From Acidobacteriota bacterium (GTDB lineage Bacteria; Acidobacteriota; Blastocatellia; UBA7656): a stretch of 64,000 nt of DNA. The stretch covers positions 1 to 64,000 of the forward strand of contig JBFMDH010000004.1 in the NCBI GenBank assembly GCA_040754075.1, given 5' to 3'. Made by a program: the position numbers and the translations under genes. Position 1 is the stretch's first letter, and each line of letters begins with the position of its first letter. Below the pieces are notes generated by a model. That model saw nothing but the letters and a program-made list of their open reading frames with translations, did not search any database and had not been told where the DNA came from. Below, in pieces: positions 45,895-48,467 of the stretch.

Positions 45895-46104
45895 ATGAAA
45901 AATGTGCTTATGTTAGTTGGACTGATTTCGCTGCTTGTTGGTGGCTATTTCCTGTATCAGTACATGTACACCGCAGGCGAAGGCTACGGCAGGCTTTACA
46001 CTGCTCTGGGTATTTTCCTGGTTTCTCTGGTTTGCTGGGGAATTTACTTCTTCCAGAAGTTTAAGGAAGAAGGCGAACAGGACATCAGTATTACAAAATT
46101 CTGA
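45895..46104 (+). CDS. Small two-helix membrane protein
   Basis: The 69-residue product (KNVLMLVGLISLLVGGYFLY start) has two hydrophobic helices at about residues 3-22 and 36-56, an aromatic/glycine-rich short link (YTAGEGYGRLY) and a charged tail with KFKEEGEQD. No family is recognised. An AAGGAGG lies 6 bases before the ATG, and it has its own promoter. Expression is probably real; function unknown. Confidence 0.7.
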   Translation: MKNVLMLVGLISLLVGGYFLYQYMYTAGEGYGRLYTALGIFLVSLVCWGIYFFQKFKEEGEQDISITKF

Positions 46105-46163
46105 ACGCGTTTTAACTTAGCAAACTGTCGGGAAACAAATATCCAAACCGACCAGCATTGATG

Positions 46164-46239
46164 CCCCTGCTGGTAACGCGGTCTAATTTTTGTTTAAAGG
46201 ACGGCGTTACAGCAGGGGTTCAATACCCCCGATTTTTTT
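46164..46239 (+). terminator. Nested hairpins with T-run after the small membrane gene
   Basis: A large stem pairs CCCCTGCTGGTAACGC (46164-46179, one bulge) with GCGTTACAGCAGGGG (46204-46218). A second short stem, GGGGT (46215-46219) with ACCCC (46225-46229), precedes T7 at 46233-46239. Both use GGGG at 46215-46218, so they cannot form at once. It may be a plain terminator or an attenuator for the next gene. Confidence 0.7.
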
Positions 46240-46329: not shown

Positions 46330-47379
46330 ATGAAAAAGTTGTTGCTATTTTTCATTCTTGTAAGTTTATTTATACCTGTGATGCCGGCATTCTCCGACAC
46401 TTCCTTAGTGCAAAAATCGAAAGACGAAAAGGCTGCGGATAAAAAAGATAAAGAGAAAAAGAAAGACAAGGATGAGCCGTCATCGACTGCAAAAACCCAT
46501 GTGATGTGGGAAAAACCTGCCGACATCACAGCGCGGGATTTATATTACGGACCGGGCGGTAAAGAGGGCGCGCCGGAACTGGCGACCACTTTTAAATTCA
46601 TTCAACGCCGCACCACCGGCACCTCGGAAAAGATGGATGTCGAAGATAACCTGGGTCGCAAATGGGTCGTCAAATTTGGTCCCGAAGTGCGCGCCGAAGT
46701 CGCCGCCTCACGCATTATATGGGCAATCGGCTATCACGCAGACCAGGACTATTTCGTTAAACGGGCGCACATCGAAGGGCGCGGCGGGTTTGATATTGGC
46801 GATGTCCGTTTTGAACGCGATGATGATGGGTTTAAATCCGAAGGTCGCTGGGCGTGGGACGCTAATCCTTTTTTAGGCAAACGCGAATTTGAAGGATTGA
46901 AAGTGGTCACCGCGCTTATCAAAAACTGGGACTTGAAAGATTTGAATAACAAAATTGTGCGTCCAAGTAAAAAAACAGGCGACCCGAATAAAATGATTTA
47001 TTATGTTTCAGACGTTGGCGCATCGCTTGGCAACACCGGTTCGGGGTTTAATGACATTGGCTTGTTTAAAGATTTTCCCGCCGACCGCGCCATTAATTAT
47101 GAAAATGCCAAAGGCCACCCCGTGGCTTTTGCCGCTGAACCGTTCATCACCGGAACCCAAAACGGCGAGGTGATGCTTTACAGCAAACGCAAACGCTGTC
47201 AGGAAATTTTCAAAGGCGTGAAGGTTGAAAGCGCCCGCTGGGTCGGCAACTTGCTTGCGCAACTCACGGATGAGCAGTGGCGTGATGCGTTTCGCTCGGC
47301 GAATTTCACTGAACAGGAAATCGCGCTCTATGTGAAGACTTTTAAAGAACGGGTGCGCCAGCTTCAGGAATTGCGTTAA
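46330..47379 (+). CDS. Exported protein with kinase-like catalytic motifs
   Basis: The 349-residue product has a signal peptide (1-22), a lysine/aspartate-rich linker (about 30-57), then a domain carrying the order of protein-kinase motifs: beta3-like Lys115 in KWVVKFGP, helix-C-like Glu123 in RAEVAASR, Asp201 and Asn206 in DLKDLN, and Asp228 in SDVGASLG, resembling K / E / DLKxxN / DxG. A C-terminal helical region follows (LAQLTDEQWRDAFRSANF). No glycine-rich loop of standard form is seen. It is likely an atypical secreted kinase or a kinase-fold protein; activity is inference. Confidence 0.65.
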   Translation: MKKLLLFFILVSLFIPVMPAFSDTSLVQKSKDEKAADKKDKEKKKDKDEPSSTAKTHVMWEKPADITARDLYYGPGGKEGAPELATTFKFIQRRTTGTSEKMDVEDNLGRKWVVKFGPEVRAEVAASRIIWAIGYHADQDYFVKRAHIEGRGGFDIGDVRFERDDDGFKSEGRWAWDANPFLGKREFEGLKVVTALIKNWDLKDLNNKIVRPSKKTGDPNKMIYYVSDVGASLGNTGSGFNDIGLFKDFPADRAINYENAKGHPVAFAAEPFITGTQNGEVMLYSKRKRCQEIFKGVKVESARWVGNLLAQLTDEQWRDAFRSANFTEQEIALYVKTFKERVRQLQELR

Positions 47380-47390
47380 TTTGATTCATC

Positions 47391-47458
47391 GGTTTTCAGT
47401 TTTGAGTTTTCAGTTTTGAGTTGAAAGATTTTTATCAATCAACTGAAAACTCAAAACT
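47391..47458. repeat. Inverted heptamer array (TTTTGAG/TTTTCAG type), between convergent genes
   Basis: Left arm 47391-47422 is GGTTTTC/AGTTTTG/AGTTTTC/AGTTTTG/AGTT; right arm 47440-47458 is CAACTGAAAACTCAAAACT. It lies at the junction of convergent genes and could end transcription from both sides. Confidence 0.85.
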
Positions 47459-48467
47459 AACTCTTTCCCAATCCCAGGCTGATCTCTTCTTCCTCTTGTT
47501 CAATCACTTCGGCTCGGTTGTGGGCAATCGTGCCGCTACGCACCAGATAAATACCTGCAAAAACCACCCCCGCGCCAATCACCTGTCCCCAGTTCGGAAT
47601 TTCGCCAATCATCGGATAGGCGGCAAGCATGGCAAACACCGGCTGAATGTTTGAATAAATTGCCGAGCGGGTCGCGCCGATTTTTTTTACGCAATGATTC
47701 CACAAGATAAAACAGAGGGCGATGGAAAGCACGCCGCTTGCAATCAAGCCAACCCAGGAAATCATTCTGACGGCTGCCCAGTTCTGCCTGGCAAGCATCG
47801 GCGCGCTCACTAACCAGAGCGCAGGGGTGCCGAGCAACATCATAATGGTTGCGGTTTTCAGAGAGCCATAGATGTGCGCGAAATGGCTGGTGCCGATGGT
47901 GTAAGTCGCCCAGAATGCCGCTGCCAAAAGTAGCATCAAATCGCCTCGCAGACTTCCGGCAAAATGAATGGCTTTGCCTCCTGCCAGAATAATTAATGCC
48001 AAACCTGTGAAAGCAACGCCCAAGCCGATGACCGCGCGCGAAGTGAAATGTTCGTGTTTTCTAAACCGGCTGATAACCGCTGTGAAAATCGGCGAAGTGC
48101 CGAGTATCAACGCTGCGTTCCCTGCATTGGTGTAAGTCATGCCGATGGTGACCAGCGATTGATTGATGGCTGCTGATGACAGCCCGAAAAGAAACATCGG
48201 AAAGAGGTGGCGCGGCTGGACTTTAAATCCTTGCTTGGAGAACGCGAGCGCCGCCGCCATACAAAGCGAGGCGACCAGAAAACGCGGCGCGCTGAAGGCA
48301 AGCGGCAAAAAATCTTCGAGCGCGAATTTAATCAGCGGATAATTGACGCCCCAGATGAGCGCCGTGAGCAGCAACAGCAAATCGGTTACGCCGAAAGGCG
48401 GAGATGAGGGTTGAGACGACTGATTATTTTTCAAGGATGTAGTTTGGAAAATTAAGCGCGATAGCAA
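47457..48467 (-). CDS. EamA/DMT-superfamily transporter
   Basis: The 336-residue product has about ten hydrophobic helices in two EamA repeats, starting near LLLLLTALIWGVNYPLIKFAL and second repeat near GDLMLLLAAAFWATYTIGT. It should export or import metabolites, substrate unknown. The N-terminal 30 residues precede the first helix and may be partly untranslated leader. The gene is convergent with the kinase-like gene and shares the terminal hairpin array. Confidence 0.85.
   Translation of the reverse strand: MLSRLIFQTTSLKNNQSSQPSSPPFGVTDLLLLLTALIWGVNYPLIKFALEDFLPLAFSAPRFLVASLCMAAALAFSKQGFKVQPRHLFPMFLFGLSSAAINQSLVTIGMTYTNAGNAALILGTSPIFTAVISRFRKHEHFTSRAVIGLGVAFTGLALIILAGGKAIHFAGSLRGDLMLLLAAAFWATYTIGTSHFAHIYGSLKTATIMMLLGTPALWLVSAPMLARQNWAAVRMISWVGLIASGVLSIALCFILWNHCVKKIGATRSAIYSNIQPVFAMLAAYPMIGEIPNWGQVIGAGVVFAGIYLVRSGTIAHNRAEVIEQEEEEISLGLGKS

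Follow-up and report, generated by a model that had tools for sequence, protein, structure and literature searches.

To our knowledge, few kinases operate outside the bacterial cytoplasm, and what serves them as phosphate donor is an open question. The solved folds nearest to the protein analyzed here are those of HipA/HipA_2 (PF07804, PF20613) and CtkA. HipA and the family of our protein have in common an SGxxxK-like glycine loop, whose counterpart in our protein is the TTGTSEK loop (residues 95-101), an N-x-D-x-x-x-x-N loop, and an Asp residue at the DFG position. Unlike HipA, our protein possesses a signal peptide, and its 349 amino acids leave no space for the HipA N-terminal domain; both this domain and a HipB partner are absent, the protein consisting of a signal peptide, a linker and a kinase-like domain, and its relatives are accompanied by extracytoplasmic partners instead of HipB. 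Fam20C is a kinase-fold protein acting outside the cytosol; our protein resembles it by fold alone, with no sequence similarity found (Pfam, E limit of 10), and belongs to a bacterial family with other partners. The kinase-fold protein CotH has been described in a gene cluster together with a polyphosphate polymerase and DUF4956 (PMC7112168). Relatives of our protein likewise share their loci with DUF4956 and an enzyme that makes polyphosphate, but here the enzyme is PPK1. PlpD-type proteins (PMC11116518) join patatin to Omp85. In one relative of our protein (L030), a single chain similarly starts with an enzyme-like domain and continues into an Omp85 barrel, but this domain is kinase-like and not a patatin, and in the sister family KIN-L the barrel is encoded by a separate upstream gene.

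The window, i.e., the whole stretch of 64,000 nucleotides of acidobacterial DNA that was analyzed, contains an ORF with an ATG start, 349 codons and a stop codon, whose presence was confirmed (Table 1). We consider it likely that it encodes an exported HipA/CtkA-type kinase of protein-kinase-like fold, representing a family that is mainly acidobacterial and lacks annotation. The earlier note had read this gene as encoding an exported protein with a signal peptide and the K-E-DxxxxN-DxG set of protein kinases. Its residue numbering is correct for K115 (in WVVKFG), E123 (in RAEVAAS), D201 and N206 (in NWDLKDLNN) and D228-V-G230. The first 22 residues have the character of a signal peptide, and a hydrophobic N-terminal segment is present in 109 of 120 homologues, the exceptions being mostly truncated or borderline.

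Table 1. Features of the kinase-like gene and its product in the window.
Feature	Position	Strand	Basis
Gene for exported kinase-like protein	46330..47379	+	ORF; four genome copies; homologues phylum-wide
Signal peptide, residues 1-22, MKKLLLFFILVSLFIPVMPAFS; putative cleavage site	46330..46395	+	Sequence; homologue N-termini
Lys/Asp/Glu-rich linker, residues 23-56, low confidence	46396..46497	+	pLDDT about 44-51 for most residues
Kinase-like domain, residues 57-349	46498..47376	+	pLDDT mostly >90; Foldseek kinase matches
Strand 1-strand 2 loop TTGTSEK, residues 95-101; G97 113/117, K101 108/117	46612..46632	+	Model, HipA alignment, conservation
Lys115, ATP-lysine position, end of third strand; 117/117	46672..46674	+	Model and conservation
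Glu119 and helix-C Glu123; each 117/117	46684..46698	+	Model and conservation
Predicted catalytic loop N199-W-D201-L-K-D-L-N206-N207	46924..46950	+	N-x-D-x-x-x-x-N as in HipA; conservation
D228-V-G230, predicted metal-binding, DFG position; D and G 117/117	47011..47019	+	Model and conservation
C-terminal helical segment, residues 299-346; W304 and Q316 near-invariant	47224..47367	+	Model and conservation

The family of the window protein is unannotated in Pfam and NCBIfam. The protein itself had no match in Pfam (reporting limit E 10), none near any cut-off in NCBIfam and none in a sequence search of the PDB, and searches of these three collections with a family profile yielded nothing useful. 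Among the kinase models, neither Pkinase (PF00069; eukaryote-type Ser/Thr kinases) matched the window protein, nor did CotH (PF08757) or HipA/HipA_2 match either this protein or 30 aligned members; a search of the source genome with the CotH model also found nothing. The source genome possesses four copies of the family, and of 297 genomes sampled from the phylum, 50 contained at least one match. When 84,980 species genomes were scanned with a single conserved peptide, 95 relatives were retrieved; the 80 that were kept are nearly all labelled Acidobacteriota, with one 'Proteobacteria' MAG among them, although relatives elsewhere could have been missed since a single peptide pattern was used. 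The contig scan was built on an 8-member alignment, the 30-member alignment being too divergent, and plasmid records gave no match. The family is mainly acidobacterial, and it is encoded in the complete genome of a cultured bacterium, Terriglobus roseus DSM 18391 (L079/L111).

Since a loose form of the motif (K-E-DxKxxN-DxG) appears in 2.7% of shuffled domain sequences, its occurrence in one sequence is suggestive at most. Across the aligned homologues, K115, E119, E123, D201, D228 and G230 are identical in 117 of 117, which argues that the motif set is not due to chance; P82, G134 and W174 are equally invariant. The charged ones among these invariant positions are E119 and the catalytic set of kinases. 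Slightly less strict conservation was found for N206 (112/117, otherwise Gln), N207 and N199 (113/117 each) and K203 (110/117).

AlphaFold2 modeled the window protein with a pLDDT of 86 and a pTM of 0.81 (30 sequences), and a second member (L041, encoded next to PPK1; 59 sequences in a largely different alignment) with values of 91 and 0.85; the two models agree. In the model of the window protein, K115 closes the third strand of the N-lobe (residues 111-115), E123 is part of the helix that comes next (120-132), helix 185-196 precedes the loop that holds D201, and D228 stands directly after the next pair of strands, behind strand 221-226. In both models, strands, helices and motifs succeed each other along the chain in the order of kinases. 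A fold unrelated to kinases, which the earlier note had named as the outcome speaking against its reading, was not predicted: Foldseek returned kinases as the best PDB matches for both models, with CtkA at E-values of 5e-4 and 2e-5, HipA at 4e-4, and Rio2, MK2, PI3K/PI4K and Fam20C (4kqb, 5yh0) as further matches. Of the fold comparisons that had been proposed, the one with HipA held, HipA and CtkA being closest, whereas CotH was absent from the best 50 PDB matches. The TM-scores to kinases are modest (about 0.25-0.5), and the protein would therefore be a divergent member of the fold. Taken from the predicted structures, its kinase fold is well supported, and so is the placement of the putative active site, whose Lys, Glu, DxxxxN and DxG elements are conserved and located at kinase positions along the chain. 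The kinase resemblance described in the earlier note is thereby supported. Large phage and archaeal-virus proteins in BFVD (A0A6J5S481, A0A4D6E245, R4T6E8), one of them named a portal protein, also include a region that matches the model in its predicted fold (E 2e-6 to 8e-4).

HHalign comparisons of the window protein's family (the small family) with the HipA (p 0.036), HipA_2 (p 0.26), Pkinase (p 0.051) and CotH (p 0.076) profiles gave values that, for HipA, Pkinase and CotH, were not clearly above those of non-kinase controls. In the alignment with HipA, which is not significant alone, all motifs line up: TGTSEK pairs with GGARPK, K115 and E123 pair with a Lys and a Glu, NWDLKDLN pairs with NTDDHLQN, and D228 pairs with the Asp of AYDL. 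KIN-L, a sister family of larger proteins (533-650 aa), retains Lys146, D277, N282 and a literal DFG; its HHalign comparison with the small family (probability 99.5, E 3e-22, catalytic motifs aligned) indicates that the two are clearly homologous. Weak matches to Pfam HipA_2 were obtained for six of the 16 KIN-L members (best E 9e-4), and in one search the score was 15.1 bits, below the curated cut-off of 27; the KIN-L alignment reached an E-value of 1e-4 with the HipA_2 profile, compared to 0.06-0.7 for non-kinase control alignments, and both families combined gave a p-value of 0.003 with HipA. Because of the motif register, the homology to KIN-L and the HipA_2 matches of the latter, we regard the family as probably working like HipA-type kinases and as a probable distant relative of them, while lying outside HipA as delimited by its Pfam models.

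Relatives of the window protein occur in fusions and gene sets that bear on location and phosphate donor. The single frame of L030:1426-3603 (+) in genome G199 (726 aa) comprises a signal peptide, a kinase-like domain and a C-terminal Omp85 barrel, and that of L231:3782-6004 (+) in genome G293 (741 aa) joins a kinase-like domain to a PAP2 phosphatase membrane domain. An Omp85-type gene is situated directly upstream of KIN-L in all 15 testable loci, the sixteenth (L229) being cut by the contig end. Pfam confirmed Omp85 in the four partners tested (L126/L232, L216, L217, L227), and the L226 partner was matched by a home-made profile only. Relatives of TLC ATP/ADP transporters adjoin KIN-L at L216-L219 and L224, with a weaker case at L227, and could plausibly supply nucleotides; a TLC search of the source genome returned no match, as did its control search. 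At L217:1365-3839 (+), directly upstream of KIN-L, TLC and Omp85 parts lie in one frame of 825 aa; the fusion may be genuine or may result from an error in the sequence.

Around 98 members of the small family, PPK1 (counted within 2.5 kb) was found near 15, at 13 loci; there it is co-directional with the kinase-like gene, the gap usually being about 120 bp or less, and all PPK1-adjacent members fall into one clade from Pyrinomonadaceae and gp4-type genomes. DUF4956/MgtC genes are near 14 members, including the deepest outgroup, and stand beside many of the PPK1 loci. PLD-like genes and MsbA-like ABC transporter genes are each near 51 members, genes for an exported calcineurin-like phosphatase near 30, and those for an exported PTP/DSP phosphatase near 15. 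Gene order and orientation vary (PPK1>KIN>DUF4956>; MPE<198<PLD<KIN>ABC<; ABC>KIN>PLD>198>MPE>), and the association therefore survives rearrangement. The PPK1, DUF4956/MgtC, PLD-like and ABC partners, together with the PAP2 fusion, the presence of the lipid kinases PI3K and PI4K among the fold matches and the described CotH clusters, lend appreciable weight, short of an even chance, to the alternative that the protein is not a protein kinase but, together with such partners, phosphorylates envelope lipids (phospholipids or glycolipids) or handles polyphosphate chains. The neighborhood evidence for this is indirect and does not extend to the window copy, and the PLD-like family falls well short of the cut-offs curated for named PLD enzymes. 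In about 20 loci, the PLD-like gene and that of the calcineurin-like phosphatase flank a gene for a conserved exported protein of about 198 aa without a Pfam match (L060:5956-6552 (-) and relatives). A further neighbor cluster (C7_381) was dropped, as it appears to be a shadow ORF on the strand opposite to PLD genes that it overlaps. Some of the closest relatives are preceded by a gene for an exported protein of about 338 aa (L035:6775-7788 (+), L122:8425-9441 (-), L130:6207-7214 (+)), with a weak FlgT_C match in L035; it is missing at the window copy.

The window copy belongs to a nine-member clade without PPK1, DUF4956, PLD-like, ABC or phosphatase neighbors, and the single PPK1 gene of the source genome is located elsewhere. 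The neighborhoods of relatives consequently inform on the family and not directly on this copy, which has a GT9-like gene and an ORF for a 69-aa membrane protein (45895-46104) on one side and an EamA transporter gene on the other. Between this 69-aa ORF and the kinase-like gene lies a long GC-rich hairpin with about 20 paired bases (46158-46224; region z-score -3.2), possibly a terminator; since it is present as a single copy in the genome, it does not represent a repeat family. An AT-rich inverted repeat just 3' of the kinase-like gene (47395-47461) may serve converging genes as a bidirectional terminator; its only matches are to microRNA models, below threshold. The Rfam matches in the vicinity of the gene are to microRNA families below the cut-offs and were rejected as chance hits.

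In the reading that we favor, that of an exported HipA/CtkA-type kinase, the signal peptide would, judging from its sequence, direct the protein across the inner membrane. The glycine loop, K115 and E123 would then bind the phosphate donor, N206 and D228 would chelate metal, and D201 would serve phosphate transfer to a periplasmic or outer-membrane target, be it a protein, a lipid or a glycan; the phosphatases accompanying relatives (PAP2, calcineurin-like, PTP/DSP) may reverse the mark. Catalysis, the donor (ATP, polyphosphate or an exported nucleotide) and the substrate are elements that we infer. The extracytoplasmic site is indicated by the signal peptides, the Omp85 and PAP2 fusions, and the Omp85 and TLC neighbors of KIN-L. 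Against a kinase function stands that no kinase profile is significantly matched by the sequence of the window protein, as do the modest TM-scores and the lack of the partner genes at the window copy; moreover, ATP is normally unavailable outside the cytoplasm. Kinase-fold proteins also include non-kinases such as pseudokinases and AMPylators, and the divergent sequence and a site without obvious ATP would suit either another chemistry (AMP transfer, as in SelO-like proteins) or a pseudokinase acting as envelope sensor or scaffold. We deem this unlikely: pseudokinases usually lack some catalytic residues, whereas the canonical set, including D201 and D228, is invariant here. That the motif arose by chance in an exported protein unrelated to kinases, with which the rate of loose matches among shuffled sequences and the missing Pfam match would agree, is highly improbable in view of the complete conservation in 117 homologues and two kinase-fold models.

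On the level of the family, the genes and their partners suggest a phosphorylation system outside the cytoplasm. The kinase-Omp85 and kinase-PAP2 fusions, like the PPK1-kinase-DUF4956 and Omp85-kinase-TLC gene sets, are unusual and provide concrete hypotheses on donor and location. More tentatively, and with considerable doubt on our part, the Acidobacteriota might possess a phylum-wide envelope phosphorylation system, in which periplasmic or surface-located kinase-like domains, held there by Omp85 partners or fusions and opposed by exported phosphatases, would draw on a non-cytoplasmic donor; this could be polyphosphate from the adjacent PPK1, moved with DUF4956, or nucleotides moved by the adjacent TLC ATP/ADP-type transporter. 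The wider family and its fusions raise the interest of this finding beyond one gene.
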